Below are positions 8,508 through 24,470 of a stretch of 46,108 nt of DNA, piece by piece. The position numbers were made by a program, and so were the translations under genes. The first letter of the stretch is position 1. Each line of letters begins with the position of its first letter. Location: positions 1-46,108 of the forward strand of contig NZ_JAOARH010000020.1 in NCBI RefSeq assembly GCF_025210595.1. Reading direction: 5' to 3'. The notes beneath the pieces are model-generated. The model saw nothing but the letters and a program-made list of their open reading frames with translations, was not told the DNA's origin and made no database searches. This stretch comes from Winogradskyella sp. (GTDB lineage: Bacteria > Bacteroidota > Bacteroidia > Flavobacteriales > Flavobacteriaceae).

Positions 8508-9860
8508 TTATTTAATAACTGTTAAAAATGCACTACTTAAAGCTTTAATATTTTCTACTTGCATACATCGTGGGTCACCATACGCATCAGACATGATGCC
8601 TTCGAACGAATTTTTTAATAACCAATTAGAAAACTCATTAACAGCTATACCACTACTATTGTTTTCTATTAAAGTCGTCAATGAATTATTCTTAAAGTCT
8701 TTCCAGGTTATCTCTATACACCCTTGCATTTTATTAAAGAAAACAGGGGCAAAAGTAAAAGCTTTTTTTTCTTTTAATGCAGCTTCATAAGCTATAGTCC
8801 CTGAAACTGTAAAAACAGCTTCAACCTCATCTAACAATTTATGCGAATCTGACTTATTATCAATTAGATAGGTGTTACGTAAGCTTTTTACTGATTTATA
8901 AAAACTCACCCCTCTATCTCCAATAGCATTAGAGTGCTCTTTAACTAAAAGAATATAATTCTGAGGTAATATTCTCCAAATATTTGTAATCAATTCTAAT
9001 TGACTCTCATAGTATCGGCCAATAACATCAATTGAAGCTTCTGGTTGCTTATGTAACGTAAAAAGAACTGCTTTTTTATTTTCAGGTAAGTCTTTAATTA
9101 ATGTTTCGTCAACAAATCTTTTAAATAAAAATCGATTATAAACTTCTACAATTCTAATTTTAAATTGAGTAAGTGGTTTTGTATATAATGTTGGGTCGTT
9201 AACATCTTGATTCGTTCTTAAAACAAAGTTTTTTAATAGAGTTAAATTGTGTTTAAATGTACCTTTCTTTGCTATTAATTTATCATTTATTTCAAGATAT
9301 GAAGGTTTTTCAAGTTTAATCTGAGAATTTTCAATAGATGGTGAATTAAAAACTTCTTTAATATTTGATTGAAATTCATCAGTAAAAAATGTAAACCTCC
9401 CATTTGGCATTCTAATTGTGTGAGGGTTTAAAAACTGACAATCAAGCTCATTTACTGCTTTAGTTAATCTATGTATAATTAATTCGTGAGCCCATGTTAC
9501 TTCTCCAAAAACAAATTTTATATTATTAGTTTTAATAAAATGATGCACTAAACTCTGAAGTTTTAACAAATACTTAAACGTCCATGACTTAGGTTCTTCT
9601 CTTAAGACTCTATCCCCAAAAATAAGCTCGTTAATTTTTAAATCAATACTTAATTCATCAATACTTGACGCTAGCACTTCTTTTTTCCCAATATATAATA
9701 ATTGATTTTTTGAAAATTTTGTCTTTAAACTTTCATATTGTTTTCTATTTGGAATTATCCAATAGCTAATTATATTATGCTTTTTTAAGTTTTTAGCAAT
9801 TTCAACAAAAACATCTGTTTTGTAATAGTTTGCGATAAAACATACACTCTTCATATCCAT
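8508..9860 (-). CDS. Capsule polysaccharide synthesis-type transferase (KpsC/KpsS-like)
   Basis: A 450-residue soluble protein. The C-terminal part looks like the Capsule_synth fold of KpsS/KpsC and CDP-glycerol transferase relatives: LLVKEHSNAIGDRG (about 304-317) and VSGTIAYEAAL (352-362), the usual Lys-Glu-His and 'sGTaglEal' donor-site motifs. The N-terminal part has a Rossmann-like start, SVCFIANYYKTD. Proteins of this fold transfer CMP-activated acids such as Kdo, so it is a reasonable candidate for attaching the CMP-nonulosonic acid made by the pse genes; this is inference from fold and position. Two in-frame ATGs exist (9860 and 9854) and either may be used. Identity to a characterised enzyme is uncertain. 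Confidence 0.6.
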   Translation of the reverse strand: MDMKSVCFIANYYKTDVFVEIAKNLKKHNIISYWIIPNRKQYESLKTKFSKNQLLYIGKKEVLASSIDELSIDLKINELIFGDRVLREEPKSWTFKYLLKLQSLVHHFIKTNNIKFVFGEVTWAHELIIHRLTKAVNELDCQFLNPHTIRMPNGRFTFFTDEFQSNIKEVFNSPSIENSQIKLEKPSYLEINDKLIAKKGTFKHNLTLLKNFVLRTNQDVNDPTLYTKPLTQFKIRIVEVYNRFLFKRFVDETLIKDLPENKKAVLFTLHKQPEASIDVIGRYYESQLELITNIWRILPQNYILLVKEHSNAIGDRGVSFYKSVKSLRNTYLIDNKSDSHKLLDEVEAVFTVSGTIAYEAALKEKKAFTFAPVFFNKMQGCIEITWKDFKNNSLTTLIENNSSGIAVNEFSNWLLKNSFEGIMSDAYGDPRCMQVENIKALSSAFLTVIK

Positions 9861-9886: not shown

Positions 9887-11125
9887 TTATGCTATTTTAT
9901 AATTTCTCTTATAAAGAATAAAGATACTTACCAATAAAGACAAAAAAGTACTAACAAACATCGCTATTGATATTTTTTCTAAAAAATTCATGTCTAAAAC
10001 GATTAAAATAAAAAGAAATACAAAAGCGCTAAACAATGCTAAATATAACTTAATAATATTTTTATTTTCTCTACCATAATGCACTTCTAAATAAGCATAT
10101 ACACACGCTAAAAATGTTTGGCCTATTATTAAAATAGAAATATAAGATACTCTAAATAAATCATTATAATTATTTGCAAGATATATTTCTGTTACAAAAA
10201 TTACAAAACTTAAAGCAAGTGTTAAAAACGCTAAGTATTTATACAATAAATTCCGTCTTATAATCAATACATTTTTTTCCACATAAAGATCTTTTAAAAC
10301 AAAAGCCCATATAGATGAATGTGTTAAAAAAATGACCATAGAAAAACGTTGAACTAAAGATAGCAAGACGCCATCATCCAAAGACATTTTGGTTAAAACA
10401 TTTATTTTACCAAAATTTGTAATAAACATCATAATAAAAACTTGCATTATTGATGGCCAAGAAAATAATAATGCTTTTAAAAATATTTTCTTTATCTGCT
10501 CTTGATAAGATTTTGTATTATTTTTTAATAAAACATCTATAATACATTTAAAAAAATAGATAATAGAAAATAAAATCTGACCAATAAATATTAGCCATAA
10601 TGAAAACTCTAAACTTAAAAAGAAATATCCAAAAAGAAATGACAATGATATAATATTTGAAGCAAGTGTAATATATACAGCCTTTTCTGGCCTATTGGTA
10701 AGTCGATAATAAGATGCAAAAAAAACAGTAGCTAAAACAAACAGTAATCTAGAAACTATAAAAACTATAAATGACTCAAACTCAAAACTAAAATAATTTA
10801 AAGCAATTAAACCTAAACCGATAAAACAAACTATTATATATAGCCGTTGAAAAGATTTAACAAAAATATTTACAGTGAATTCCTTATCATCACTATTTCT
10901 ATACGCATAAAAGAAATATCCCGACAACCCTAAATCTATTAAAGGAATAACGACTGTTGTTATTGAATATATATATTCAATTGATATGTATATTTTTTGA
11001 TCTTTAAAAAGTTGAAAAACCAATAGAGGAAGCAAAAAAACAATAGCTTTATCTAGATAGCTTAAAGCCATGAACCTAAATAAGTCTTTATTGCTTATAA
11101 AAAGTTTTTTTGCTCTTTTCAACAT
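9887..11125 (-). CDS. wzx: Wzx-type polysaccharide flippase (MATE/MOP superfamily)
   Basis: A 412-residue polytopic membrane protein with about twelve predicted helices spread evenly along the chain and short loops, the usual layout of Wzx/RfbX lipid-linked repeat-unit exporters. The N-terminal region FMALSYLDKAIVFLLPLLVF matches the typical first helix with its conserved polar and proline positions. It would move undecaprenyl-diphosphate-linked repeat units across the inner membrane for the Wzy-type polymerase. It lies between pseI and the capsule-type transferase, with 26 bp to the latter and 19 bp to pseI, so it is probably in the same transcript. The gene symbol is given by role; no residue-level signature proves it. 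Confidence 0.82.
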   Translation of the reverse strand: MLKRAKKLFISNKDLFRFMALSYLDKAIVFLLPLLVFQLFKDQKIYISIEYIYSITTVVIPLIDLGLSGYFFYAYRNSDDKEFTVNIFVKSFQRLYIIVCFIGLGLIALNYFSFEFESFIVFIVSRLLFVLATVFFASYYRLTNRPEKAVYITLASNIISLSFLFGYFFLSLEFSLWLIFIGQILFSIIYFFKCIIDVLLKNNTKSYQEQIKKIFLKALLFSWPSIMQVFIMMFITNFGKINVLTKMSLDDGVLLSLVQRFSMVIFLTHSSIWAFVLKDLYVEKNVLIIRRNLLYKYLAFLTLALSFVIFVTEIYLANNYNDLFRVSYISILIIGQTFLACVYAYLEVHYGRENKNIIKLYLALFSAFVFLFILIVLDMNFLEKISIAMFVSTFLSLLVSIFILYKRNYKIA

Positions 11126-11144: not shown

Positions 11145-12203
11145 TTAAAATTCTACATCGAAATTTTCGATAAATTGCAAATTTAAAGGAGTCCCCTTAA
11201 CTATATTATTAGAAAATGATTTTCCAAGTATTTGATTATAATACTTAGGGTGCAACCCATAACCAGGACGTATTGATCTCACATTCTCGGAAGTAATAAT
11301 TTCTCCGGCTTTAACATCTTTAACCACAAATAATGATCTTGCAAATTTTCTGTTCTTTTTTACTTTTTCAGAAACTTCGTAAGACACTTTTCCTAATAAC
11401 TTTTCAGCATCTCTTACTTGATCTACCATTTCTTTAAATTCATTAACATCAAGAGAAAAATCAGCATCAGGACCGCCAATATTTTTATCTAATATAAAAT
11501 GTTTCTCTATAACTTTTGCACCAAGAGTAACAGCTATAGTTGGAGCCAAACTACCATAAGTATGATCACTAAATCCAACTTCTACATCAAAACGTGTTTT
11601 TAGGTCTGGTATTGTATTAAGATTAGCCAACTCTAATGGGGCTGGATAACTTGATGTGCATTTTAACAATATAATATCATTATTCCCTACTTTTCTACAT
11701 GTTTCTACCGCCAATTGAATATCTTCTTCCGTAGCAATACCTGTAGACATTATTATTGGCTTCCCCTTTGAAGCTGCATATTCAATTAATGGAATATCTT
11801 GTATCTCAAAAGAAGCTATTTTATAAGCAGGCATATCATATTTCTCAAGAAAATCTACAGCTGTTAAATCAAATGGTGATGAGAAACAAATTAAACCTTC
11901 TTTCTCTGCTGCTTCAAATAACTGATCGTGCCATTCCCAAGGAGTATATGCTTCACCATATAATTCATGTAAAGTTTTACCATCCCATAAAGTACCTTCA
12001 TTAATTTGAAAATACTTGTTATCTACATCTATTGTCATAGTGTCGGGAGTATACGTTTGAAGCTTTATTGCATCTGCTCCACATCTTTTTGCTGCTTTTA
12101 TTGTTTCTATGGCAACATCCAAATTTCCATTATGATTTGCTGATAATTCTGCGATAATAAAAGATGGATAATCTTTTCCTATATTTTTATTTCCTATTTT
12201 CAT
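11145..12203 (-). CDS. pseI: Pseudaminic acid synthase
   Basis: Condenses a 2,4-diamido-2,4,6-trideoxy-L-altrose with phosphoenolpyruvate to give a pseudaminic acid. The 352 residues divide into a NeuB-type TIM barrel (about 1-275) and a C-terminal SAF/antifreeze-like domain (about 290-345, with KDVKAGEIITSENVRSIRPG). Seen: SANHNGN at 21-27, LKCTSSYPAP, GFSDHTYG and IEKHFILDK; the His of SDHT and of EKHF match the Mn-binding His residues of NeuB. PseI rather than sialic acid synthase is chosen because pseB, pseC, pseF and pseG lie directly upstream and no NeuC/NeuA equivalents are present. There are 3 bp between it and the PIG-L gene, so it is in the same operon. Confidence 0.92.
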   Translation of the reverse strand: MKIGNKNIGKDYPSFIIAELSANHNGNLDVAIETIKAAKRCGADAIKLQTYTPDTMTIDVDNKYFQINEGTLWDGKTLHELYGEAYTPWEWHDQLFEAAEKEGLICFSSPFDLTAVDFLEKYDMPAYKIASFEIQDIPLIEYAASKGKPIIMSTGIATEEDIQLAVETCRKVGNNDIILLKCTSSYPAPLELANLNTIPDLKTRFDVEVGFSDHTYGSLAPTIAVTLGAKVIEKHFILDKNIGGPDADFSLDVNEFKEMVDQVRDAEKLLGKVSYEVSEKVKKNRKFARSLFVVKDVKAGEIITSENVRSIRPGYGLHPKYYNQILGKSFSNNIVKGTPLNLQFIENFDVEF

Positions 12204-12206
12204 TTC

Positions 12207-12917
12207 TTAAGCTATTATTCTAACAATATTAAATGCTTCCGCATATGGCTTTCCTACCATTACACCTCTTTGTTTTGCTAATATAGTTAAGGCTTCTGGT
12301 GATCTTGGATGCGGATAGTTTCTTTTTTCAAATTCATAACTTTCCATCCCTTTTATTTTCGCATCAATGTCCTTTTGAGATACTTCTATAAACATATTTG
12401 GAATAAAGTGTCTTGGATCTGTACTGGCACGCCATTCAGTTCCTGAAGGAGTTTCAAAGGTTATGATAGTCGACACTTTTTCATGCTCCATTGGTCTAGT
12501 AGCAGTTATTACAGCTTCAAACGTGCGTTGATGATCTATATTTACATCTCCTCCGTGATGTGTAAATATAACTTCGGGTTGAAACTGTGTTTTTTCTGCT
12601 TCTATAACTTTTATAATATCTAATAGGTTAACCGCATCAAATCTATTATCTGGAAAATCATAAACTCCCACAGATTCATATCCTATTGCTAATCTTGCAC
12701 TTTCAATATTTTTTTTGTGCTCCTCCAGTTGTTCTTTCCATAATTCTGGATCTCTTTTATCTGATCTAGATGTTATTCCTTCTCCAAGTATAATGGTTCT
12801 AACAATAGCATTATGTTCATGTATTAATTTATGCATAGTAGCACCTAAGCCTAATAATTCATCATCTGGGTGCGCTACGACTACAAGTATTCTTTTATTT
12901 TTTAGTAATTCTAACAT
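12207..12917 (-). CDS. PIG-L family N-deacetylase in the pseudaminic acid module
   Basis: A 236-residue LmbE/PIG-L protein, a zinc-dependent family that removes acetyl groups from N-acetylated sugars. The zinc and catalytic motif HPDDE is at 16-20 and the second motif, HHGG(D)VNIDHQ, at 120-130, so the active site looks intact. The frame could open at TTG 12923, but ATG at 12917 (two codons later) is preferred. It overlaps the end of the formyltransferase gene upstream by 23 bp and is followed by pseI after 3 bp. In this setting it may remove an N-acetyl from the altrose intermediate or from the nonulosonic acid so that a formyl group can replace it; this is inference. BshB/MshB-type thiol synthesis is less likely here. 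Confidence 0.85.
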   Translation of the reverse strand: MLELLKNKRILVVVAHPDDELLGLGATMHKLIHEHNAIVRTIILGEGITSRSDKRDPELWKEQLEEHKKNIESARLAIGYESVGVYDFPDNRFDAVNLLDIIKVIEAEKTQFQPEVIFTHHGGDVNIDHQRTFEAVITATRPMEHEKVSTIITFETPSGTEWRASTDPRHFIPNMFIEVSQKDIDAKIKGMESYEFEKRNYPHPRSPEALTILAKQRGVMVGKPYAEAFNIVRIIA

Positions 12918-13581
12918 CTGCAATTATAGATTGATTAGCTTTTAGAGAAGCTCTTGTAAATTCAATTTTAAAATGATTTGTTTCTAAATATGCATGAGGA
13001 TATCCTTCAGCATCCAGCATTCTAATATGATCAAATAAAGACTCTAAGTCTATTATTTGATCTGTAGCAATATTACTCATTTCAGGAGTTCTTCTTACAA
13101 ATAAGGTAGATTCTCCTTCTTGAGGAACAGGTTGCATTCCTTTTTCTATTATTTCAGTAATAGCAATCGCCACTACTTTATTGGCTCTTAAAAAAACTTC
13201 TTCAGCAGTTCCATTCAAGTTAAGGTCTTTCTTTAAATAAATATCTCCTGCATCTATCTCCTCTGTTACTTTAATAGCACTTATTTTTGTAGTTTCAATA
13301 TCTCTTGCTATCAAATTTTGAAGTGGACTACCTCCTCTACCAAAAGGCAAATCAGTCATATGAAATACTATACACTCAAAGTTTGAATAAATTTGTTCTG
13401 GTATATAATATGACCAATGTGGAATAAAAATATACTGAGGGTTTATTTCTTTTACCAACTCATAATTAAAATCATTCTTATCGTTAATAAAAGACCAAGT
13501 ATCATTAGGGAAAAGGCTCTTCATCATATTAGGTAATGAAGCATTCCAACTTTTATGTGATAATATCAGATAATTATTCAT
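12895..13581 (-). CDS. Formyltransferase-like protein 1 (sugar N-formyltransferase candidate)
   Basis: A 228-residue protein with the Formyl_trans_N fold of methionyl-tRNA and sugar N-formyltransferases, which use N10-formyl-tetrahydrofolate. Seen: a Rossmann-like N-terminus, IFIPHWSYYIP at 51-61, then FHMTDLPFGRGGSP at 73-86 with the catalytic His at 74, and EEIDAGDI with the catalytic Asp at 110. The Asn two residues before His in the classic Asn-His-Asp triad appears as Val here. It lacks the tRNA-binding C-terminal domain of Fmt, which fits a small-molecule substrate. It overlaps the second formyltransferase gene by 8 bp. Its likely target is an amino group of a pseudaminic-acid precursor. 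Confidence 0.82.
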   Translation of the reverse strand: MNNYLILSHKSWNASLPNMMKSLFPNDTWSFINDKNDFNYELVKEINPQYIFIPHWSYYIPEQIYSNFECIVFHMTDLPFGRGGSPLQNLIARDIETTKISAIKVTEEIDAGDIYLKKDLNLNGTAEEVFLRANKVVAIAITEIIEKGMQPVPQEGESTLFVRRTPEMSNIATDQIIDLESLFDHIRMLDAEGYPHAYLETNHFKIEFTRASLKANQSIIADVRITKK

Positions 13582-14209
13582 CTTCCTTATATATTTTTAA
13601 AAAGTACTTTTGCCCATTATAATTAAAAAATGCAGGATACCTTTCGTTATCGCATATTCTAAGCAAATTAAACTGATCTTTAATTGTTTGATTTATATCT
13701 AACTCACTATCCTTATTAGTTCTTCTAGGGTAGAAACTCTCTTCCCCTTCTTGTTCTTTACCTTCAACAGGAAAGTTTCTTAAAAACTCTAAGATTAATT
13801 CTTGTGTTTTTATACCTTGTTGGTGTTTAATTTCAGTTAACAATTCATGACCTTCCAATTCCATGTACTGCTTTCCATAAATTCTTCCCGAATCTACTTT
13901 TTCTGCAGCCTCAAATAGTGTTACAGGAATTCTTGACACTCCTTCTAACACTTGCCAACTTACAGGTGACCAACCTTTTCCTTTTGGAAGATCACTTTCA
14001 TGAACAACCAAATTATAATTGTTATAAGATAAATGTTTAAATATTTTTTCACAAGAAAGCAAGCACAAAACATCACCTCTCTTTACATCTTTATGCTCAT
14101 TAATAAACACAACGTCATATCCAAATTCTTTTTCAATCTGTTGCTTTAGTTCTTCTGCATATGGAATAATCCATGATGTAGGATTATCTACAAGTATTTG
14201 AATTAACAT
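13574..14209 (-). CDS. Formyltransferase-like protein 2 (sugar N-formyltransferase candidate)
   Basis: A 211-residue relative of its downstream neighbour. Seen: VVHESDLPKGKGWSP at 68-82 with the likely catalytic His at 70, and EKVDSGRI with Asp at 106. The Asn of the Asn-His-Asp triad is again Val. Both copies end in a shared pattern: E(G)ES/xF(Y/V)xRRTxxxS near 157-165, then a block with R(I/M)xDxExYP, so they are paralogues rather than unrelated enzymes, though diverged. It overlaps pseG by 7 bp and the first formyltransferase by 8 bp. The position directly after pseG, where pseH is often found, suggests that formylation of the 4-amino group takes the place of acetylation. That is inference. 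Confidence 0.82.
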   Translation of the reverse strand: MLIQILVDNPTSWIIPYAEELKQQIEKEFGYDVVFINEHKDVKRGDVLCLLSCEKIFKHLSYNNYNLVVHESDLPKGKGWSPVSWQVLEGVSRIPVTLFEAAEKVDSGRIYGKQYMELEGHELLTEIKHQQGIKTQELILEFLRNFPVEGKEQEGEESFYPRRTNKDSELDINQTIKDQFNLLRICDNERYPAFFNYNGQKYFLKIYKEDE

Positions 14210-15219
14210 ATGGCTTGTTGTATTAGTTCTAAAAAGTGCGTTTTTTGCTTTCCGTCAAATAGTTTTTGTTGTTGGTTTATTTTTAGGTGGTAATTATTCT
14301 TGTCATCATTCAATATCATATCAACCTGGCTTTTAAAATCATCTGGTGTATATTCATTAAAATCTTCCGCTGCATATATCAACTCGTTTTCTACAAACCC
14401 TTTGTATATATTATATTGATTATCGATATAATATCCTCCTAATACAACCATTTTTACAGCGCATATTTCATAACTTATCGTACTAGTTGGCACTATTGCT
14501 AATTGGCAATTCTTCATTAACTTAATCATGTCCTGTTCTGATAAGCTCTTATGAATTGTTATTTTATCTTTATTGTCTTTTTCTAGATCAAAAATTTCTT
14601 TGTGCTTATAGGCGCTTCCAACAACTACAGATATTTTATCTATGGTTTTCAATTTCAACAAACCTTTAACACATTTCTCTGTAAGATTATAGAAATCAGC
14701 TCCTCCAAAACACACAAAAATATTCTTAATACTATTAATTTCTCTTTTTTGAGATGCTTCTTGCAAAAAGGAAGGTCTTAAAACTGCATATTTAGCACCA
14801 AGCGCATAAATAGTATCCTTTGAACCTTCAAAATCACTAGGGGTTAATGTTAATGAGTGATTTACAACAATATCAGCATACATCTTTTCTTTTGCTAAAT
14901 CATCGATATACATTAGCTTATACCCCATGTTTTTTAATGCTAATTGATAATTACTATTAAAATGATATCCATCAGCTATAATGAAATACTCATTAGAAGT
15001 GAAATTCTCCTCAAGCCAAATTGGCTCCTCATTTATTTCTATGGATTCTGGAATAACTTGTAAGTTGTACTCTTTAGGAATAACATCAAGTGTAGAATTG
15101 CTTCTTGTGATAAAAATATAATCATAATTGTCTTTATATATTTCAACCAAAGCAAATAATCTAAACATATGGCCTAAGCCTGTTTCTGAATTACCATCTG
15201 CTCTAAAAATTAGTTTCAT
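14203..15219 (-). CDS. pseG: PseG, UDP-sugar hydrolase of pseudaminic acid synthesis
   Basis: Releases UDP from the UDP-2,4-diamido-2,4,6-trideoxy-beta-L-altrose intermediate to give the free sugar used by PseI. It is a GT-B-like protein of 338 residues. The N-terminal FRADGNSETGLGHMFR (5-20) contains the GxGH motif with the catalytic His at 17, and the C-terminal AIVPTSTISYEICAVK stretch matches the nucleotide-binding motif of PseG. A TTG at 15225 opens the frame two codons earlier, but ATG at 15219 fits the family start. It overlaps pseF by 17 bp. Whether its natural substrate is diacetamido or formamido cannot be told from sequence. Confidence 0.93.
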   Translation of the reverse strand: MKLIFRADGNSETGLGHMFRLFALVEIYKDNYDYIFITRSNSTLDVIPKEYNLQVIPESIEINEEPIWLEENFTSNEYFIIADGYHFNSNYQLALKNMGYKLMYIDDLAKEKMYADIVVNHSLTLTPSDFEGSKDTIYALGAKYAVLRPSFLQEASQKREINSIKNIFVCFGGADFYNLTEKCVKGLLKLKTIDKISVVVGSAYKHKEIFDLEKDNKDKITIHKSLSEQDMIKLMKNCQLAIVPTSTISYEICAVKMVVLGGYYIDNQYNIYKGFVENELIYAAEDFNEYTPDDFKSQVDMILNDDKNNYHLKINQQQKLFDGKQKTHFLELIQQAIC

Positions 15220-15907
15220 TATCAACTAACAATTTATATTTTAACTCAGCAAGTTTCCAATCCATAAGCGTATCTATATCTTGCCCTTTAAGTTCATCAA
15301 TTTCAATAACTCCAGTATTATCGGTCCATAATACTTGTTTTTTTATAATAGTTTCTGGTTTAAAAAAATAAAACTGACCTGCATCATGAAATGCTTTTTC
15401 TAAATCTTGAGATCTTGAAGATTGATGTTCTGGATAGAACATTGTCATTTTTCCAAAAGAATTTTTTCTTACCGCTCTTTGTATTGGAAAAGAAAAAGGT
15501 AACACAGGAAATACACAATCGAAATTATTATTGTCTAATAAATTGCTCGCTTGATTTAATATTTCTGATGTAACAAAAGGAGCCGTAGGATAAATACAAC
15601 ATGCTCTTTTAATAATTTTTCCTTCTCTCTTATAAAACTCTATAATTTCTTTGATAACATCAAAAGTTGTAGCAAAATCATCTGAGTTTTTTTTACTTCT
15701 CAAAAATGGTACTTTCGCGCCATATTGTTTAGCTACTTCAGCAATCTCATCATCATCTGTAGAGACCATTACCTCATTAAACAAATTACTATTTAAAGCT
15801 GTCTCTATTGAATATGCTATTATTGGTTTTCCTAAAAAAGATTTTATGTTTTTTCTAGGAATTCTTTTACTTCCACCTCGTGCAGGTATGACAGCTAAAT
15901 TAGTCAT
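15203..15907 (-). CDS. pseF: Pseudaminic acid cytidylyltransferase
   Basis: Activates pseudaminic acid with CTP to CMP-Pse, the donor for the final glycosyltransferase. The 234 residues show the CMP-sugar synthetase signature IPARGGSKRIPRKNIKSFLG (7-26, nucleotide and phosphate binding), followed by STDDDEIAEVAKQYGA (49-64) and the DDFATT stretch near 81. Length fits PseF/NeuA single-domain enzymes. The ATG lies 8 bp inside pseC, and the 3' end overlaps pseG. NeuA or LegF are the alternatives; the surrounding pseB-C-G-I genes favour PseF. Confidence 0.92.
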   Translation of the reverse strand: MTNLAVIPARGGSKRIPRKNIKSFLGKPIIAYSIETALNSNLFNEVMVSTDDDEIAEVAKQYGAKVPFLRSKKNSDDFATTFDVIKEIIEFYKREGKIIKRACCIYPTAPFVTSEILNQASNLLDNNNFDCVFPVLPFSFPIQRAVRKNSFGKMTMFYPEHQSSRSQDLEKAFHDAGQFYFFKPETIIKKQVLWTDNTGVIEIDELKGQDIDTLMDWKLAELKYKLLVDNETNF

Positions 15908-17051
15908 TTAAAAATTTAAATATTCTTTCTATGACAAACTCTTGTTCATCATCGGTTAAAGTTGGATACATTGGTAAACTAATACACTTAGAATAATAAA
16001 CCTCAGAATTACTTAAATCAGCATTGCCATAACCTATGGTCTTGTAATAAGGTAAGGTGTGAACTGGTATATAGTGTATTTGAGCAAATACACCTGCTTG
16101 TCTTAAATAATCATAAAGCCCTTTACGGTTTTCAACCTCAATAACAAATAGATGGTGTGCATTATAAACTCCTTGTGGTAAACTTTGAAACTTAATTTTA
16201 CCATCAAATGCTTGCTTATAGTTTTGAGCTATTTCATTTCTACGCTTAACACCAGCATCGTTTTTCTCTAATTGAGTTATTCCTAAAGCCGATTGGATAT
16301 CTGTAAGCCTATAGTTAAAACCTAACTCTTGCATTTCGTAATACCAACCTCCATGATTTTCACTCATATTTTCTTTTGTGATGCCATGAGTCCTAAGCTT
16401 AGATAATTTGTTATACAATACCTCATCATTGGTTGTAACCATACCGCCTTCACCACAGGCTATATGTTTAACTGGGTGAAATGAAAAAATACCAATATTG
16501 GCATACATGCCATTTCCACATAATTGCTTATCTCCTTTTGAATCCGTAAAATATCCACCTGGTGCATGGCAAGCGTCTTCTATAATCCACAAATTATACT
16601 CATCTGCAAGGCTTCTAAATGCTTCTAGGTTTACTGGTAAACCAGCAAAATCTACAGGAATAATTCCTTTAAAAAAACCTTTAGGCTTACTTTCTATAAG
16701 TTGTTTAGTACTTTCTAAAGAAAGCGTATAAGTATCTGGATCTATATCTGCAAACCATACTTCACCACCACAGTATCTTACACAATTTGCAGATGCTGCA
16801 AAAGTTATTGGTGTGGTTATTACTCTTTCGCCTGGTTTTAGCCCTAAAGCCATAACAGCAATATGCAATCCTGCTGTAGCATTAGATACAGCTACGGCAT
16901 ACTTACTACCAACATAACTTGCAAATTTTTCTTCAAACTCTTTAACTTTTGGTCCTTGTGTTAAAAAATCTGCTTTTAGTGTCTCTATTACAGTTTCTAT
17001 ATCTTTTTGGTCAATATATTGACGTCCGTATGGAATAATAGAATTTTTCAT
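15900..17051 (-). CDS. pseC: PseC, UDP-4-amino-4,6-dideoxy-N-acetyl-beta-L-altrosamine transaminase
   Basis: PLP-dependent DegT/DnrJ/EryC1 aminotransferase of 383 residues that installs the 4-amino group on the keto-sugar made by PseB. Seen: SNATAGLHIA at 56-65, the PLP-ring-stacking region IIEDACHAPGG at 156-166, and IFSFHPVKHIACGEGG with the PLP Lys at 195. The N-terminus (YGRQYIDQKDI) and full length match PseC. The amine it makes is normally acetylated by PseH; no GNAT acetyltransferase is encoded in this window. The start ATG overlaps the stop of pseB by 1 bp. In-frame and intact. Confidence 0.93.
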   Translation of the reverse strand: MKNSIIPYGRQYIDQKDIETVIETLKADFLTQGPKVKEFEEKFASYVGSKYAVAVSNATAGLHIAVMALGLKPGERVITTPITFAASANCVRYCGGEVWFADIDPDTYTLSLESTKQLIESKPKGFFKGIIPVDFAGLPVNLEAFRSLADEYNLWIIEDACHAPGGYFTDSKGDKQLCGNGMYANIGIFSFHPVKHIACGEGGMVTTNDEVLYNKLSKLRTHGITKENMSENHGGWYYEMQELGFNYRLTDIQSALGITQLEKNDAGVKRRNEIAQNYKQAFDGKIKFQSLPQGVYNAHHLFVIEVENRKGLYDYLRQAGVFAQIHYIPVHTLPYYKTIGYGNADLSNSEVYYSKCISLPMYPTLTDDEQEFVIERIFKFLND

Positions 17052-18070
17052 TATACTTCAAAGGTTGGGTCTACGTGCTCTTTTATTAGCGTTCTTAAAC
17101 TTTGTATTGTTTCCCAATCTTCATTCCCACCAGAGTTATAACTAAAACCTAAAGGTACTTTTTTAGCATTGAATGTTTCTATATATTCTTGTAAACTCCA
17201 TTGATGAGTTGCTGGTAAAATAGTATAATATTTTCCTAAATCATAAGTATAAAAAGAATCTGAAGCCGTTATCATTTCTTCGTGTACTTTTTCACCAGGT
17301 CTTATACCTATTACTGGTTTTTCGCAATTAGGTCCTATAGCCTCAGCTACATCTAAAATCTTATATGAAGGAATTTTAGGAACAAATAATTCTCCTCCCC
17401 AAGCATGTTCTAAAGCGTGCATTACCATATCTACACCTCCTTGTAAAGATATGTTAAACCTTGTCATATTAGGATCTGTGATAGGTAATTTGTTTTCTTC
17501 TTTTTTCTTGTTAATAAAAAACGGAATTACCGAGCCGTTTGACCCCATTACATTGCCATATCTTACCACAGAAAATCTAATTGGGTTTTGCCCTTTTATA
17601 TTATTTGCAGCGATAAACAACTTATCTGATGTTAGTTTGGTTGCTCCATATAAATTTATTGGTGCACAAGCTTTATCTGTAGATAAAGCTACTACGCGCT
17701 CTACATTAGTTCTAAGGCAAGCATCAACAACATTTTCGGCACCATTTATATTTGTTTTTATACACTCATCTGGGTTATACTCAGCTATATGTACATGCTT
17801 CATTGCTGCTGCGTGAATAACGTAATCTATATGCTGAAAAGCTCTTACCAATCGCTCTCTATCTCTTACATCACCAATAAAAAATCTAATTTGTGGGTAC
17901 TTCTCTATAGGAAACTCTTGAGCCATTTGAAATTGCTTTTGCTCATCTCTAGAAAATATCACTAACTTTTTAATATTTGGGTGATTTTTAAGTATATGAC
18001 TTGTAAGTGCCTTTCCTAAAGAGCCTGTTCCTCCAGTAATTAAGATTGATTTGTTATTTAATGTAAACAT
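17051..18070 (-). CDS. pseB: PseB, UDP-N-acetylglucosamine 4,6-dehydratase (inverting)
   Basis: Extended short-chain dehydrogenase of 339 residues starting pseudaminic-acid synthesis from UDP-GlcNAc, with C5 inversion. Seen: the NADP-binding GGTGSLG at 13-19, ALSTDKACAPINLYGATK around 128-145 with Asp132, Lys133, Tyr141 and Lys145 (the Asp-Lys dehydratase pair and the YxxxK pair), and RYGNVMGSNGSVIPFF. It lacks the membrane-anchored N-terminus of FlaA1/CapD-type dehydratases such as WbpM, so the soluble PseB form is favoured. It is the first gene of the pse set. A consensus promoter lies in the end of cysN just upstream, and a dyad symmetry precedes the start. Confidence 0.94.
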   Translation of the reverse strand: MFTLNNKSILITGGTGSLGKALTSHILKNHPNIKKLVIFSRDEQKQFQMAQEFPIEKYPQIRFFIGDVRDRERLVRAFQHIDYVIHAAAMKHVHIAEYNPDECIKTNINGAENVVDACLRTNVERVVALSTDKACAPINLYGATKLTSDKLFIAANNIKGQNPIRFSVVRYGNVMGSNGSVIPFFINKKKEENKLPITDPNMTRFNISLQGGVDMVMHALEHAWGGELFVPKIPSYKILDVAEAIGPNCEKPVIGIRPGEKVHEEMITASDSFYTYDLGKYYTILPATHQWSLQEYIETFNAKKVPLGFSYNSGGNEDWETIQSLRTLIKEHVDPTFEV

Positions 18071-18106: not shown

Positions 18107-18137
18107 CAAAATTATTACACAACCATTCCTGCTGCAA
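18107..18137 (-). promoter_or_regulatory. Candidate promoter of the pse genes
   Basis: On the minus strand, TTG (18137-18135) is followed after 20 nt by TAATTTTG (18114-18107), matching the Bacteroidota pattern TTG-N17-23-TANNTTTG on both boxes. Transcription would start near 18101, giving a leader of about 30 nt before the pseB ATG. The -33 part lies within the final codons of cysN, so pse genes could be expressed both from this site and by read-through. Confidence 0.5.
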
Positions 18138-19371
18138 CCGTTTCATTCGTAGTATCATCAACTAAAATAATACTGCCTGTTGTCCGATTTTCTCGGTAAG
18201 TATCAGTCATTAAAGGCTTAGTGGTTCTAATTTTCACCTTAGAGATATCATTCATTTTTAATTCTTTATCCTCACTATTTCGATCCAAAGTGTTAATATC
18301 TATTTTATAGACAATTTCTTTAATCATTGCCTTTTGATCGTTTGAAGTATGTTTTATGGTATATTTTGCTCTAGGTTTAGCCGGACTATTATTTAGCCAA
18401 CATAACATAACTTCAATATCTTGAGAAGTATCTGGTTTATTGTTAGAACGTACAATCATATCACCACGACTTATATCAATATCATCTTCTAAAGTTATAG
18501 ATACAGACATAGGCGCAAATGCTTCCTTAACTTCACCAGCATAGGTTTCAATAGTTTTAATCTTACTTGTAAAACCAGATGGTAGAACTGTAACCTCATC
18601 TTCAGGCCTCAATACACCACTTGCTATACGTCCTGCATAACCTCTATAGTCTCTGTTATTATCATTACTTTGTGGCCTTAACACTGTTTGCACAGGAAAA
18701 CGTGCATCTACTTTATTAATATCACTACTAATGTGCATGGTCTCTAATGTGTGTAATAAGGGAGCTCCTTGATACCAACTCATTGCTGTAGATCTGTTTA
18801 CTACATTATCTCCTTTTAATGCGCTAATTGGAATAAAACGAACATCTTTTACCAACATTTTTGACGAAAATTCTTCAAATTGGTTAATAACTTTGTTATA
18901 TGCTTCTTCACTATAATCCACCAAATCCATTTTGTTGACACAAACAATAATATGTGGAATTTGTAAAAGTGAAGCTATAAAAGCATGACGTCTAGTTTGC
19001 TCAATAACACCATATCTAGCATCTACTAAAATAATAGCTGCATTTGCCGTAGAAGCACCTGTTACCATGTTTCTTGTGTATTGAATATGACCAGGTGTAT
19101 CTGCAATAATAAATTTACGCTTAGGTGTTGTAAAGTATCTATAGGCAACATCTATTGTAATACCTTGTTCTCTTTCATCTCTTAATCCGTCAGTAAACAA
19201 AGCTAAATCAACTCCTTCATGACCTTTCTTCTTACTTGTATTTTCTATGGCTTGTAATTGGTCTTCAAAAATAGATTTAGAATCATAAAGCAACCTTCCT
19301 ATGAGAGTGCTCTTACCATCATCTACACTACCTGCTGTGGTAAACCTTAAAAGCTGATTGTTATCTAACAT
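18115..19371 (-). CDS. cysN: Sulfate adenylyltransferase subunit 1 (GTPase)
   Basis: Regulatory GTPase subunit of ATP sulfurylase, making adenosine 5'-phosphosulfate from sulfate and ATP together with CysD. The 418 residues show an EF-Tu-like GTPase: P-loop GSVDDGKST at 14-22, DTPGHIQYTRNM near 93-104, NKMDL near 147-151, then two beta-barrel domains. The length fits a stand-alone CysN with no fused APS kinase. It follows cysD after 62 bp. The short hairpin in that gap may affect message processing. No sulfite-producing PAPS reductase gene is nearby, so the product is more likely used for sulfation. Confidence 0.95.
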   Translation of the reverse strand: MLDNNQLLRFTTAGSVDDGKSTLIGRLLYDSKSIFEDQLQAIENTSKKKGHEGVDLALFTDGLRDEREQGITIDVAYRYFTTPKRKFIIADTPGHIQYTRNMVTGASTANAAIILVDARYGVIEQTRRHAFIASLLQIPHIIVCVNKMDLVDYSEEAYNKVINQFEEFSSKMLVKDVRFIPISALKGDNVVNRSTAMSWYQGAPLLHTLETMHISSDINKVDARFPVQTVLRPQSNDNNRDYRGYAGRIASGVLRPEDEVTVLPSGFTSKIKTIETYAGEVKEAFAPMSVSITLEDDIDISRGDMIVRSNNKPDTSQDIEVMLCWLNNSPAKPRAKYTIKHTSNDQKAMIKEIVYKIDINTLDRNSEDKELKMNDISKVKIRTTKPLMTDTYRENRTTGSIILVDDTTNETVAAGMVV

Positions 19372-19391
19372 GTGTTTTATATATGAAATGT

Positions 19392-19409
19392 TTCCGATAG
19401 TAATCGGAA
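19392..19409 (-). repeat. Small hairpin between cysD and cysN
   Basis: TTCCGAT (19392-19398), loop AGTA, ATCGGAA (19403-19409): a 7-bp perfect stem in the 62-bp gap between two genes that should be co-transcribed. There is no T-run after it on the minus strand, so it may be an RNA stability or processing element, or a copy of a small dispersed palindrome, rather than a terminator. Confidence 0.45.
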
Positions 19410-19433
19410 CAACATTAAAATTTTTACTTTAAA

Positions 19434-20339
19434 TTAAAAATATCCTTGACGCTTACGATCTTCCATGGCAGATTCAGAACGTTTATCATCACTACGGTTT
19501 CCGCGTTCTGTTTGACGCATTCCAGAGACCTCAAGTGCAATTTTTTCTATGGTATCTGCATCAGATTCAATTCCGCCTGTTATTGTAATATCACCTAAAG
19601 TTCTAAAGCGTACTTTTTTTGTTACAATTTCTTCGGAATCTTCTAATATTAGGAATTCAGAATTTGGAATCCAGGAATCTTGTCTTCTAACTACTTCGCG
19701 CTCATGTGCAAAATAAAGTGAAGGTATTGCTATGTTTTCTCTTTTTATATAATTCCAAACGTCCATTTCTGTCCAATTACTAATAGGAAAGGCTCTAAAG
19801 TGTTCTCCTTCAAAATGTTTTCCGTTAAAAATATTCCAAAGCTCTGGCCTTTGGTTTTTTGGATCCCATTGCCCAAAATCATCTCTATGTGAAAAGAAAC
19901 GTTCTTTAGCTCTTGCTTTTTCTTCATCTCTTCGTCCTCCTCCAATAGCGCAATCTATTTTATTATGCTCTATAGCATCTAAAAGTGTAGTAATTTGAAG
20001 TGCATTTCGTGTGGCATTTTTTCCTTTTTCTTCTGCTACTCTACCTTCATCTATAGACTCTTGTACAGACCCAACAATAAGTTTAACACCAAGTTCTTCA
20101 ATGATATCGTCTCTAAACTTAATAGTTTCAGGAAAATTGTGTCCTGTATCTACATGCATTAAAGAAAAAGGAATTTTACATGGATGAAACGCCTTCTTGG
20201 CTAAATGAGTTACAACAATAGAATCTTTACCACCCGAAAATAATATGACTGGATTGTCAAATTGTGCCCAAACTTCTCGTAAAACATATATCGCTTCACT
20301 CTCTAACTCGTCAAGGTAATTTAAATAATATTTACTCAT
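19434..20339 (-). CDS. cysD: Sulfate adenylyltransferase subunit 2
   Basis: Catalytic ATP-pyrophosphatase-type subunit of ATP sulfurylase. The 301 residues begin with the helical CysD N-terminus (YLNYLDELESEAI), followed by the PP-loop SGGKDS at 35-40, MHVDTGHNFPET, the GGGRRDEEKARAKER stretch (binding the phosphosulfate) and the C-terminal GNRSDDKRSESAMEDRKRQG, typical of CysD. Full length. The start overlaps the end of cysC by 8 bp, so the two are translationally coupled. Confidence 0.96.
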   Translation of the reverse strand: MSKYYLNYLDELESEAIYVLREVWAQFDNPVILFSGGKDSIVVTHLAKKAFHPCKIPFSLMHVDTGHNFPETIKFRDDIIEELGVKLIVGSVQESIDEGRVAEEKGKNATRNALQITTLLDAIEHNKIDCAIGGGRRDEEKARAKERFFSHRDDFGQWDPKNQRPELWNIFNGKHFEGEHFRAFPISNWTEMDVWNYIKRENIAIPSLYFAHEREVVRRQDSWIPNSEFLILEDSEEIVTKKVRFRTLGDITITGGIESDADTIEKIALEVSGMRQTERGNRSDDKRSESAMEDRKRQGYF

Positions 20340-20934
20340 CGTTGAGTTTTAATTTTAATGTTATAAAATCTACAATCCGTTGAGCGGCTGCTTCAACAGA
20401 CTCTTCTTCTGTTTTTATTTCTATATCAGGATTTTCTGGCGCCTCATAAGGTGCTGAAATACCTGTCATATTTTTTATTTCTCCTGCTCTTGCTTTTTTA
20501 TAAAGCCCTTTCACATCTCTACGTTCACACTCTTCAATACTTGTGTTGACATAAACCTCAACAAAGTTAACATCTTTAACTATAGTTCTTATATTATCTC
20601 TGTCTTTTTTATAGGGAGAAACAAAAGCAGCTAGTGTTACTAAACCTGCATCAATCATTAAATTAGACACCTCTGCAATTCTCCTAATATTCTCTGTTCT
20701 ATCCTTAGGTGAAAACGATAAATCATTATTTATACCATTTCTAATATTATCACCATCAAGCGAATAGGTTTTTATTCCTTTTTGATACAACTTTTGCTCT
20801 ACTACATTTGCTATTGTAGATTTTCCAGAACCTGAAAGACCTGTAAACCATAACAAAAAAGAATTGTGATTATTACGTTGTCTTCTATCGTTTTTAGATA
20901 TTTGATAATTATGAGGTACGATGTTATCTTTCAT
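20332..20934 (-). CDS. cysC: Adenylylsulfate kinase
   Basis: Phosphorylates APS to PAPS, the universal sulfuryl donor. The 200 residues contain the P-loop GLSGSGKST at 32-40, LDGDNIRNG at 59-67 and FVSPYKKDRDNIR around 104-116, whose Ser106 is the usual phospho-acceptor serine of the family. APYEAPENPD near 160-170 is the conserved C-terminal APS-binding part. The ATG overlaps the stop of the DUF2061 gene as ATGA, and the 3' end overlaps cysD. Making PAPS without PAPS reductase genes nearby points to sulfotransferase use. Confidence 0.95.
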   Translation of the reverse strand: MKDNIVPHNYQISKNDRRQRNNHNSFLLWFTGLSGSGKSTIANVVEQKLYQKGIKTYSLDGDNIRNGINNDLSFSPKDRTENIRRIAEVSNLMIDAGLVTLAAFVSPYKKDRDNIRTIVKDVNFVEVYVNTSIEECERRDVKGLYKKARAGEIKNMTGISAPYEAPENPDIEIKTEEESVEAAAQRIVDFITLKLKLNDE

Positions 20935-21365
20935 TTTAATCTTCTTTTTCTTTTAGACAACCCAAAGTTTATTTTATACCAAGCACGTTCATGTAAATAA
21001 TACAGAATCATTTTTGTAACCACTTCTACAAAACTTATTTGTAGCGCTACAAATGAATCTCCTGAAATAATCCAAGCTAAAGTCATTGTATCTAATGTAC
21101 CTATAAAACGCCAAGTAATCGTTTTTGCTATATGACGCTTTCTGCTTTCTAGTTTTATTCCATTCTTAGAAAAATTTATTTTATACCATACACGCTCGTG
21201 CAAATAGTATAATACAGTTTTGGTTGTTACTTCAGCTAAGCCAATCTTTAAACCTGCTAATGGATTTCCTATGATAATCCAAGAAAGCATAATAGTGTCT
21301 AAGGTTCCTAATATGCGCCAAGTAATTGTTTTTGCTATATGTCTTTTGTACGAAACATCTGCCAT
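20931..21365 (-). CDS. Small membrane protein with two tandem DUF2061 repeats
   Basis: A 144-residue protein made of two near-identical units, each starting KRHIAKTITWR(I/F)(L/I)GTLDT and ending YYLHER(V/A)WYKINF, separated by a short linker (NGIKLESR). Each unit is about 57-60 residues with one or two hydrophobic helices, so it is probably an inner-membrane protein. The frame can be extended to 21437, but ATG at 21365 leaves just 1 bp after cysQ and removes a 72-bp overlap, so I use it. Its stop overlaps cysC as ATGA. DUF2061 function is unknown. Its place among sulfate-activation genes hints at a role in sulfate supply or PAPS use, and it is repeatedly seen in such neighbourhoods to my recollection. 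The duplication is seen directly. Confidence 0.85.
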   Translation of the reverse strand: MADVSYKRHIAKTITWRILGTLDTIMLSWIIIGNPLAGLKIGLAEVTTKTVLYYLHERVWYKINFSKNGIKLESRKRHIAKTITWRFIGTLDTMTLAWIISGDSFVALQISFVEVVTKMILYYLHERAWYKINFGLSKRKRRLK

Positions 21366-21366
21366 A

Positions 21367-22173
21367 TTACTTGCTGACAATAAAATAGCTATTAAGTAAA
21401 TTTTCTTTGTTATATTGTAATGTTTCGTTGGTTTCATTAGAAATTACCTTTACACCAACGGCTTCGCAAATAGATTGACCTGCTGCCGTATCCCATTCCA
21501 TTGTTGGTGCAAAACGCGGATAAATGTCTGCTTTGCCTTCTGCTACTAAACAAAATTTTAATGAACTTCCTTTAGAAACTATACTCACTTTTTTCCCAGA
21601 AGATTTTAAACTTTCTATAAAATCTAATGTTGCTTGACTCATGTGCGACCTACTACCTACAACTTCAATGTTATTTGAAGCCCTTTTGGGTTGAAGTTCA
21701 ATGGTATTATTAAAAATACTTTCTAATGATGCCTTATGTGAAAGTAACTCAGCTTTGTAAGCTCGTTTTTTTGTGACGTCTGCAAAATATAAGGTTTGGG
21801 TTGCTGGTACGTAAATAACACCTAACCTTGGCTTACCTTGCTCTACAAGCGCAATATTAACGGTAAACTCACCATTTCGTTTTATAAATTCTTTTGTACC
21901 ATCAACTGGGTCTACAATCCAACATGTACCCCATGATTTTCTAATAGCATAATCAATTTGTTTATTTTCTTCGCTAATTATAGGAATATGAGTTGGTTTC
22001 AAGCAGCTATTTATTACGTCATTTGCTTCTTTATCTGCCTGAGTTAATGGTGACTTATCATCTTTATATTCTACCTCTATTACTGAGTTATAAACATCCA
22101 TTATTGCTTCACCTGCTTTAAGAGATGCTTCAATAGCTATAGTTAAGTTTTTATCTATGCTTAGTTCTTTCAC
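21367..22173 (-). CDS. cysQ: 3'(2'),5'-bisphosphate nucleotidase
   Basis: Inositol-monophosphatase-superfamily phosphatase of 268 residues that converts PAP, the by-product of sulfotransferases and PAPS reductases, to AMP. Seen: SPLTQADKEAND (41-52), IISEE with metal-binding Glu68 and Glu69, WIVDPVDGTKEF (85-96) with Asp88 and Asp91, and the C-terminal WDTAAGQSICEAVG. The start is GTG at 22173; no ATG is available until residue 25, which would cut into the conserved region. It leads the cys group after 23 bp of spacer from rfbD. It fits a locus that generates PAP by sulfation. Confidence 0.93.
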   Translation of the reverse strand: MKELSIDKNLTIAIEASLKAGEAIMDVYNSVIEVEYKDDKSPLTQADKEANDVINSCLKPTHIPIISEENKQIDYAIRKSWGTCWIVDPVDGTKEFIKRNGEFTVNIALVEQGKPRLGVIYVPATQTLYFADVTKKRAYKAELLSHKASLESIFNNTIELQPKRASNNIEVVGSRSHMSQATLDFIESLKSSGKKVSIVSKGSSLKFCLVAEGKADIYPRFAPTMEWDTAAGQSICEAVGVKVISNETNETLQYNKENLLNSYFIVSK

Positions 22174-22196: not shown

Positions 22197-23060
22197 TTAT
22201 GAAAGTTTATTTAAATTTAAAATGGCTTTCCTGAGACTTTTTCTCCAATGCGGAATAGTAATATCTAAACTTGCTTTTATTTTTGTCTTATCTAGTACAC
22301 TAAAATTTGGTCTCGTAGCAGGTGTAGGATAATTTTTTGTTTTAATAGGTGAAACTTTAATATCTGTTTTAGTTTCTTCAAAAATAGCAACTGTAAAATC
22401 GTACCAACTAGCAACACCTTCGTTACTGAAATGATATAATCCAAAAGCATTATTATTTTTATTTATAATTTCTAATAATATTTGAGCTAAATCTTTAGCA
22501 TAAGTTGGTGTACCTATTTGATCTGAAACCACGCTAATCTCATCTCTAGTATTCGCCAAACGAAGCATGGTTTTTAAAAAGTTATGATTATACTCTGAAT
22601 ACAACCAAGAGGTTCTAATAATAAAATACTGACTACATGTTTCTTGTATTGCTATTTCACCTTTTAACTTACTAAGACCATAAATACTAAGTGGGTTGGT
22701 TTCATATGTTTCGTTATAAGGCTTTGAAGCATTTCCATCGAACACAAAATCTGTTGAAATATGAATTAAAACCACATTATATTCTGAACAGATTTTAGCC
22801 AAATGTTTTACTCCTATTTCATTTACTTTATAGGCAGCATCTGTATCTTCTTCAGCCTTATCAACCGAAGTATAAGCAGCACAATTAATACACCAATTGA
22901 TGTTATTAGATTTAAAAAAATCATCTAACTCTGATGTGTTAGTAATATCTAAAAAAGATTTATCAGCAAATAAAAACTTAATATTTGAGTACTTATCTTG
23001 AATAGACTTAATGCATGTTCCTAATTGACCTTTTGAACCAGTAACTAATACATTTGTCAT
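22197..23060 (-). CDS. rfbD: dTDP-4-dehydrorhamnose reductase
   Basis: Last step of dTDP-L-rhamnose synthesis, an NAD(P)H-dependent reduction at C4. The 287 residues show the N-terminal SKGQLGT nucleotide motif (9-15), CINCAAYTSVDKAEED, HISTDFVFDG, and YGLSKLKGE with the catalytic Tyr/Lys pair. Length is normal. It overlaps rfbC by 4 bp. With the neighbouring rfb genes it supplies the rhamnose donor for the polysaccharide. Codon and base use look like its neighbours. Confidence 0.95.
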   Translation of the reverse strand: MTNVLVTGSKGQLGTCIKSIQDKYSNIKFLFADKSFLDITNTSELDDFFKSNNINWCINCAAYTSVDKAEEDTDAAYKVNEIGVKHLAKICSEYNVVLIHISTDFVFDGNASKPYNETYETNPLSIYGLSKLKGEIAIQETCSQYFIIRTSWLYSEYNHNFLKTMLRLANTRDEISVVSDQIGTPTYAKDLAQILLEIINKNNNAFGLYHFSNEGVASWYDFTVAIFEETKTDIKVSPIKTKNYPTPATRPNFSVLDKTKIKASLDITIPHWRKSLRKAILNLNKLS

Positions 23061-23602
23061 AGTTTAGCATCATTAAAGTTAGGAAATAATGTGTCTTTTT
23101 CTGAAATTATTAAATCTACATCTTTAAAATTCCAATCAATATTAAGCGTTTTATCATTATAAATAATACCACCTTCTGAAGCTTTATTATAATAATTATC
23201 ACATTTGTACGAAAAGATAGCTGTATCACTTAATACTAAAAAACCATGAGCAAAACCTTTAGGTATAAATAATTGCTTTTTATTATCTTCAGATAATTCA
23301 ATTGAAAAATGCTCTCCAAAGGTTTTAGAGTTTTCTCTAATATCTACAACAACATCTAACACGCACCCTTTAACAACTCTTACAAGCTTAGCTTGTGCAA
23401 ACTCACCTTTTTGATAATGTAGTCCTCTAATTACGCCTTTTGAAGAAAAAGACTCGTTATCTTGAACAAAGTTAACCTTTAGTTTTAAACTATCATTAAA
23501 TGTGTTTTGATTAAAGCTTTCAAAAAAATAACCTCTACTATCTCCAAAAACCTTTGGTTCTATAATAAAACAGCCTTTTAATTTAGTTTCTATAATATTC
23601 AT
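23057..23602 (-). CDS. rfbC: dTDP-4-dehydrorhamnose 3,5-epimerase
   Basis: Cupin-fold epimerase of 181 residues inverting C3 and C5 of dTDP-4-keto-6-deoxyglucose. Seen: [12 protein letters not shown] (20-31), [11 protein letters not shown] (56-66) with the catalytic His at 62, [12 protein letters not shown], and YKCDNYYNK with the catalytic Tyr region. Complete, with the usual length. Coupled by 4-bp overlaps to rfbA upstream and rfbD downstream. Confidence 0.95.
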
Positions 23603-24468: not shown

Positions 24469-24470
24469 TG

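Follow-up and report, generated by a model that had tools for sequence, protein, structure and literature searches.

In Helicobacter and Campylobacter, pseudaminic acid (Pse) is made by the canonical pathway of PseB, PseC, PseH, PseG, PseI and PseF. The pse operon described here lies at positions 11145 to 18070 of a 46,108-nucleotide stretch of Winogradskyella sp. DNA (assembly GCF_025210595.1, contig NZ_JAOARH010000020.1), hereafter the window. It has PseB, PseC, PseG, PseI and PseF in common with that pathway but is devoid of PseH. A protein of the formyltransferase fold, FT1, stands in the place of PseH, and a PIG-L/LmbE-type deacetylase (PIG-L) and a second formyltransferase-fold protein, FT2, are additional to the canonical set. 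We favour, with moderate confidence, a pathway in which this formyl cassette sets the N-acyl groups and the product is 5,7-di-N-formyl-pseudaminic acid.

Chemical work has already established a formyl group on N7 of Pse, and the sugar class is therefore not new. Statements on the papers cited here and below refer to the portions of their texts that were available. Pse carrying a 7-formamido and a 5-acetamido group (Pse5Ac7Fo) is described from Pseudoalteromonas distincta KMM 638 (PMC7281560, PMC3210612), and the pilin glycan of P. aeruginosa 1244 has a formyl group at N7 of Pse (PMC6222762). In both cases the N7 formyl group, known from structures, corresponds to the step proposed here for FT1; N5 of the KMM 638 sugar is acetylated. 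Geobacillus flagellin islands hold pse genes without pseH, and those of type III have a formyltransferase gene, fmt2; the available portion of that report neither proposes N7 formylation nor mentions a deacetylase (PMC5109656). For 5-N-formyl-legionaminic acid of Halorubrum sp. PV6, the candidate formyltransferase gene is HrrPV6_1050, of 953 bp (PMC6137143). That system differs in that the sugar is legionaminic acid rather than Pse, LegH is named, and the available portion of the report makes no mention of PIG-L (PMC6137143). Aeromonas pse islands contain PseG-PseH chimeras together with GlcNAc-PI de-N-acetylase and deacetylase genes (PMC7874193). Knowledge of the enzymes that modify nonulosonic acids has been called scarce (PMC6388019). 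No report of an FT1/FT2/PIG-L cassette was found in the open literature searched, nor any co-mention of PIG-L and pseudaminic acid in the open literature (PMC).

All open reading frames (ORFs) of the operon lie on the minus strand where an earlier note on this DNA had placed them, and are free of internal stops. The gene order is pseB-pseC-pseF-pseG-FT1-FT2-PIG-L-pseI, followed by a membrane-protein-like ORF:

17051..18070, minus strand: PseB, UDP-GlcNAc 4,6-dehydratase (inverting); TIGR03589, 502 bits (cut-off 407.75)
15900..17051, minus strand: PseC, aminotransferase giving a free 4-amine; TIGR03588, 464 bits (cut-off 423.5)
15203..15907, minus strand: PseF, CMP-pseudaminic acid synthetase; TIGR03584, 311 bits (cut-off 205.7)
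14203..15225, minus strand: PseG, UDP-sugar hydrolase; TIGR03590, 176 bits (cut-off 153.55)
13574..14209, minus strand: FT1, formyltransferase-fold protein in the PseH slot; sequence matches and neighbourhood
12895..13581, minus strand: FT2, formyltransferase-fold protein, partner of PIG-L and relative of 1zgh; sequence matches and neighbourhood
12207..12923, minus strand: PIG-L/LmbE-type deacetylase; PF02585, 70.7 bits (cut-off 28.2)
11145..12203, minus strand: PseI, pseudaminic acid synthase; TIGR03586, 528 bits (cut-off 340.25)

PseB, PseC, PseF, PseG and PseI were called by NCBIfam equivalog cut-offs, all five of which are exceeded; the genes are intact, as the earlier note had stated. PseI is found once in the genome at E 1e-90. 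Profile and PDB sequence matches likewise bear out the two tandem formyltransferase-fold proteins and the intact PIG-L deacetylase. The proposed coupling by short overlaps holds for the PseG/FT1, FT1/FT2 and FT2/PIG-L pairs but not for PIG-L and pseI, which are separated by a 3-base gap. The listed start of PseG is a TTG codon, with a Met codon in frame at 15219. PIG-L also has a listed TTG start, and its in-frame Met codon at 12917 would give an overlap found in 12 of the 44 named FT2 loci described below.

In the proposed pathway, PseB and PseC would yield UDP-4-amino-4,6-dideoxy-L-AltNAc, as is known. FT1, replacing PseH, would formylate the 4-amine (later N7), PIG-L would strip the 2-N-acetyl group (later N5), and FT2 would formylate the amine so freed at the level of the UDP-sugar, the free sugar or Pse. 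PseG, PseI and PseF would finish CMP-Pse. The formyl group, the substrates and the use of N10-formyl-tetrahydrofolate are inferred. The role of FT1 at N7 is well supported; that of PIG-L and FT2 at N5 and formyl as the transferred group are moderately supported.

FT1 scores 25.9 bits against Formyl_trans_N (PF00551), just under the cut-off of 26.1, and matches the PDB sequences of 1zgh (E 1.7e-14) and ArnA (E 5.8e-9); with the Met-tRNA formyltransferase model TIGR00460 it reaches 41 bits, below the cut-off of 201.5. FT1 and FT2 are 24% identical, and therefore no recent duplication is indicated. FT1 is rare. It occurs in 5 of 395 genomes of the phylum (the Winogradskyella genome included) and in 8 of the 44 FT2 loci, and 12 FT1 loci are known beyond the window. 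In what follows, numbers preceded by L designate loci and those preceded by G genomes. PseG abuts, overlaps or is fused to FT1 in nine of the ten other loci having upstream DNA; L045 and L089, which begin at a contig edge, were left out of this count. In L090 the order is PseG-FT1-PseI, with no FT2, PIG-L or GNAT found within 8.5 kb. G038 has the order PseG-PseH-FT2-PseI-PIG-L, where PseH (118.6 bits) occupies the position of FT1 in the window. L041 encodes a single PseG-GNAT-FT1 chain whose GNAT part scores 57 bits with our own profile and 14.5 bits in Pfam (cut-off 25.4), and is without G-x-G/A, the motif of the GNAT acetyl-CoA loop. L053 encodes a PseG-FT1 fusion in which no GNAT was detected. 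We read these two fusions as GNAT erosion beside FT1. A Mariluticola plasmid cluster has the order pseB-C-F-PIG-L-pseG-NeuB-FT; its incomplete gene table shows no PseH, and its FT scores 77.5 bits with the FT1 profile, below our threshold of 100. Neither this plasmid nor the Synechococcus plasmid described below led to a known glycan. An obligate FT1-FT2 heterodimer was considered and rejected: 36 of the 44 FT2 loci, some of them cut by contig ends, are without FT1, and L090 has FT1 without FT2.

The earlier note had reported that the window encodes no PseH or other GNAT acetyltransferase, and this was confirmed. GNAT profiles gave 0 matches across 259 stop-to-stop frames, and a Pfam scan of 30 further ORFs of the window revealed no GNAT or hexapeptide domain (four ORFs at 22197-25526 lie outside the scan). 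CrtO, an O-acyltransferase-family protein, is encoded far off at 44779-45342. The search for PseH was extended to the genome (3.12 Mb, 157 contigs, 96.9% complete), where no TIGR03585 match exceeds the cut-off, the best reaching 47.1 against 93.1 bits. Its nearest named relatives and a Por secretion tail fit an origin in Bacteroidota. This negative carries little weight because the cut-off is strict: only one of 20 controls, all of them genomes whose pse slot holds a GNAT, passes it. That same cut-off misses the pse-cluster GNAT in 19 of 20 genomes having one in the slot, and given this strictness PseH is probably under-annotated in the phylum. A second search used a profile built from 15 slot GNATs, one of them from control genome G417. 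With this profile 19 of the 20 controls score at least 83 bits (G142 lies below), and the best match in the Winogradskyella genome scores 58.1; the neighbours of that gene are dapF-like and mltG-like. The genome thus has no GNAT of the slot type, and a PseH outside the operon, which the earlier note had named as a refutation, did not turn up. Among nine other genomes with FT1 or FT3 (a further formyltransferase described below), only G367 (148 bits) exceeds 64. Within the genus, G008 has PseG and PseH followed by a gene that we take to be MaoC-like and then PseI. G011 has several GNATs ahead of PseI and a best slot-GNAT score of 60.8, similar to that of the Winogradskyella genome. None of 36 further genomes from the genus carries FT2. 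Given the PseH and GNATs of G008 and G011 and the lack of FT2 in these congeners, the pse formyl cassette is a local variant.

Seven weak PseH-profile matches (GNATs) in a genome assembly that is not fully complete could mean that an acetyltransferase from another locus serves the pathway, so that plain Pse5Ac7Ac is produced and FT1 and FT2 are accessory. We consider this extremely unlikely, as the best slot-GNAT match lies below the range of the 19 controls, and the five best TIGR03585 matches stand beside housekeeping-like genes or alone (L006 and L007 lie outside this check).

The relation between formyltransferases and GNATs was examined in 55 PseI loci, which are all those with PseI above cut-off among the 395 phylum genomes, the Winogradskyella genome excluded. 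The slot was defined as the 3 kb 5′ of PseI or a fusion to PseG. Of the 7 loci that have FT1 or FT3, 2 carry a slot GNAT, compared with 40 of the 48 that have neither (p 0.006). This value counts L120 and L131, where PseI overlaps by the listed starts; without them the figures are 38 of 48 and p 0.013. L112 and L119, which carry the PseI of G331 and G397, were counted as having neither FT1 nor FT3, the FT1 of these genomes lying on other contigs (L087 and L089). The slot definitions were picked after earlier outcomes were known and the loci are kin, so that the p-values are guides only. The exceptions in the slot are L088 (GNAT and FT1) and L106 (GNAT and FT3). FT3 is a formyltransferase of 288-295 amino acids with the canonical NxH, TxH and Asp, encoded directly ahead of PseI, PIG-L being absent (L094, L097, L104, L106 and L113); it fills the slot in 5 of the 55 loci. 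The length of Halorubrum HrrPV6_1050, as given in the portion of that report available, fits FT3 and not FT1 or FT2. A tree of 93 PseI proteins unites the PseI of the window with the copies from L012 (Aquimarina litoralis CCMR20, whose genes stand in the same order as in the window), L094, L097 and L104 in a single clade (SH-aLRT 98). Around this PseI lineage FT1 and FT3 thus seem able to replace each other, which is the strongest indication from sequence that FT1, too, transfers formyl. On the same tree the FT1/FT3 label requires 11 changes (shuffled mean 14.1; 5 of 500 shuffles as low) and the FT2 label 17 (shuffled mean 30.3; 0 of 500 as low). The formyltransferase modules are thus mobile.

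FT2 falls short of Formyl_trans_N (PF00551; 20.3 bits, cut-off 26.1) and exceeds Formyl_trans_C_2 (PF21553; 87.7 bits, cut-off 27). It aligns over nearly its whole length with PDB 1zgh (E 8.5e-72), a PF21553 protein deposited as methionyl-tRNA formyltransferase. However, the neighbourhoods of FT2 do not suit a Met-tRNA enzyme, and its TIGR00460 score of 32 bits is far under the cut-off of 201.5. When the species-genome collection was scanned with a pattern as seed, 44 named loci emerged with FT2 relatives of 42-59% identity, which we assign to Bacteroidota, Bacillota, Pseudomonadota, Planctomycetota, Myxococcota, Gemmatimonadota, Campylobacterota and others. PIG-L is present in 42 of these loci and lies at most 60 bases from FT2 in 36; PseI is present in 40, the other four being on short contigs or at contig edges; and a GNAT is found within 8.5 kb in 29. 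FT2 therefore fits re-acylation of the amine freed by PIG-L. Flanking DNA of 5 kb or more upstream and 3 kb or more downstream is present for 29 loci; of these, 20 have a GNAT without FT1, four have FT1 without a GNAT, three have both (L038, L041, L053) and two have neither (L040, L044). L047 encodes a GNAT fused to FT2, and a Synechococcus plasmid has the order FT2-LmbE-NeuB preceded by a separate transferase gene. The frequency of GNAT-bearing FT2 loci and the L047 fusion suggest that FT2 acts beside N7 acylation, with PIG-L.

These linkages bear on two other assignments. Since FT1 and FT2 are both of the formyltransferase fold and in tandem, their roles might be swapped, FT2 capping the 4-amine and FT1 re-acylating the N5 amine after PIG-L. 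This is very unlikely: FT2 keeps company with PIG-L and, in many loci, with a GNAT, whereas FT1 occurs without PIG-L in L090 and adjoins PseG, the place of PseH or the GNAT. Alternatively, PIG-L and FT2 might serve another sugar of the same glycan. The locus has further glycan genes, and PIG-L enzymes often use GlcNAc units as substrate. The co-occurrence of FT2 with PseI across several phyla, and with NeuB on the Synechococcus plasmid, makes this improbable. The neighbourhoods thus support the two-part logic of the earlier note, in which one formyltransferase stands for PseH and the other, with the deacetylase, acts on the N-acetyl group, and they add that FT1 holds the PseH slot and FT2 goes with PIG-L; overall, the proposal is supported in part.

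PIG-L itself is not confined to FT2. In the 55 phylum loci, FT2 occurs in two, each with PIG-L, and PIG-L in 4 of the remaining 53. In these clusters without FT2 it accompanies a GNAT of another family (L125), a hexapeptide protein (L144), an ATP-grasp protein and a phosphoesterase (L145) or a carbamoyltransferase (L132). Given such varied partners, PIG-L would fit an amine-freeing step, with FT2 as one possible partner. The AHPDDE motif and the downstream His are present, and H18, D20, D21, H122 and H131 are invariant in 43 of 43 aligned sequences; the conserved motif residues have a zinc role.

Several observations weigh against the proposed pathway. When counted over an 8.5-kb span instead of the slot, the alternation falls short of significance (4 of 7 versus 41 of 48, p 0.10), and 8 of the 48 loci without FT1 or FT3 show no slot GNAT either. 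L106 holds a GNAT together with FT3, and this GNAT is absent from the slot-GNAT profile matches. Absence of PseH above the TIGR03585 cut-off in all 12 other FT1 genomes is weak evidence, as only one of the 20 controls passes. The grouping of PseI from the window, L012 and the FT3 loci could be explained by linkage alone. In L087, PseG and FT1 are separated by 583 bases with a small unrelated-looking ORF; a search for GNAT relics in this gap found none. L041 retains its 57-bit GNAT remnant, in L038 a PseC fragment is directly followed by a GNAT, 7.4 kb upstream of FT1, and in L088 FT1 adjoins a PseG-GNAT (148 bits) whose loop looks intact. The PIG-L profile has no match in two of the 44 FT2 loci, L017 (contig-cut) and L051. 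In the open literature, no glycan chemistry was found for any FT1 or FT2 organism. Finally, the catalytic Asn (NxH) is missing from all 63 domains of FT1 and FT2, as is the TxH His.

L088 also has a 14-C run at 10443-10500 (minus strand), where the PseG-GNAT frame ends and FT1 begins. Long homopolymers are known phase-variation sites, and this run may be such a site or an assembly error.

By sequence, FT1 and FT2 belong to the fold family of the sugar N-formyltransferases (ArnA, VioF and others among the PDB matches), with the catalytic His and Asp kept. These are H70 and D106 in FT1 and H74 and D110 in FT2, and both are present in 63 of 63 domains (13 FT1, 50 FT2). Unlike those enzymes, FT1 has V68 at the canonical Asn position and F99 at the TxH His position, and FT2 has V72 and I103. 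The Asn column holds Val in 13/13 FT1 and V/C/I/L/M in 50/50 FT2; the TxH His column holds F/I/L in all. By contrast, FT3 of related clusters retains Asn, His, Asp and the TxH His in 5/5. The chains also differ in length, with 211 amino acids for FT1 and 228 for FT2, against 288-295 for FT3. Canonical chemistry is not assured because the Asn and the TxH His are lost. The Asn of GART is said to stabilise the oxyanion (PMC7926923). In PvdF the Asp variant was dead, while the Asn and His variants kept some activity, that of the Asn variant being lower in vivo (PMC7926923). HypX works with a slightly modified catalytic set (PMC6802093). From their residues, FT1 and FT2 are plausible catalysts. A different Asn, N66, lies four residues ahead of the catalytic His in 13/13 FT1 and has no counterpart at the same alignment position of FT2 or FT3; it could substitute for the lost Asn.

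The altered residues and shorter chains, set against 5/5 canonical FT3, would also suit proteins that keep the fold and the N7 and N5 slots but transfer a small acyl group other than formyl or draw on a different donor. The invariant His and Asp, the PseI clade shared by FT1 and canonical FT3, and the formylation that Asn-altered PvdF still performs, though reduced in vivo (PMC7926923), argue for formyl, and we regard transfer of another group as rather unlikely. The chances seem to us evenly balanced that FT1 and FT2 are two unnamed formyltransferase subfamilies with rewired active sites and, together with PIG-L, a modular cassette that swaps acyl groups on nonulosonic acids, placing formyl at N7 and N5 here and giving 5Ac7Fo and 5Fo7Ac elsewhere. 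The distinct pathway variant suggested in the earlier note is real but not unique, given the 12 other FT1 loci, the 44 named FT2 loci and the known N7 formyl group.

Other pse clusters were seen alongside. In L099, L101, L106, L116, L016, L055, L013 and L026 the PseG profile has no match and two GNAT domains stand before PseI or FT2, except that L106 has a GNAT and FT3 in place of two GNATs. A calcineurin-like phosphoesterase is encoded between PseG and PseI in L137 (7322-8964), which has an ATP-grasp neighbour, and in L128 (10977-11675); these clusters possibly make aminoacylated Pse. A protein of about 560 amino acids is encoded near PseI in L132 (7187-8866), L122 (10046-11728) and L118 (6997-8682). 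The L132 copy is a carbamoyltransferase (PF02543/PF16861), possibly giving O-carbamoylated Pse.

Two further ORFs follow pseI in the window, each without a Pfam match:

9887..11125, minus strand: membrane-protein-like ORF directly 3′ of pseI, probably a flippase
8508..9860, minus strand: 450-amino-acid protein between the flippase-like gene and a Wzy_C gene

In the Aquimarina litoralis locus L012, an ORF 45% identical to that at 9887-11125 lies about 2 kb past pseI. From its position only, the 8508-9860 protein is a candidate Pse glycosyltransferase. On the other side, sulphate-activation genes adjoin the pse operon at 18115-22173: CysN-like (GTP_EFTU-type), CysD-like (PAPS_reduct domain), APS kinase, DUF2061 and an inositol-phosphatase family member. 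Beyond them are ORFs that, judged by eye, resemble rmlDCAB. This setting points to a surface glycan that is sulphated, or to a shared locus.

The comparison points to a rule by which the N-acyl groups of Pse might be predicted from genes, with a GNAT, FT1 or FT3 for N7 and PIG-L with a partner for N5. It also proposes a function for the family known from 1zgh, a structure labelled as a Met-tRNA enzyme, and offers candidates for formyltransferase-like catalysis in which the textbook Asn may be dispensable. The N-acyl groups of Pse can decide recognition, as with a Campylobacter phage protein described, in the portion of the source available, as binding acetamidino-Pse.

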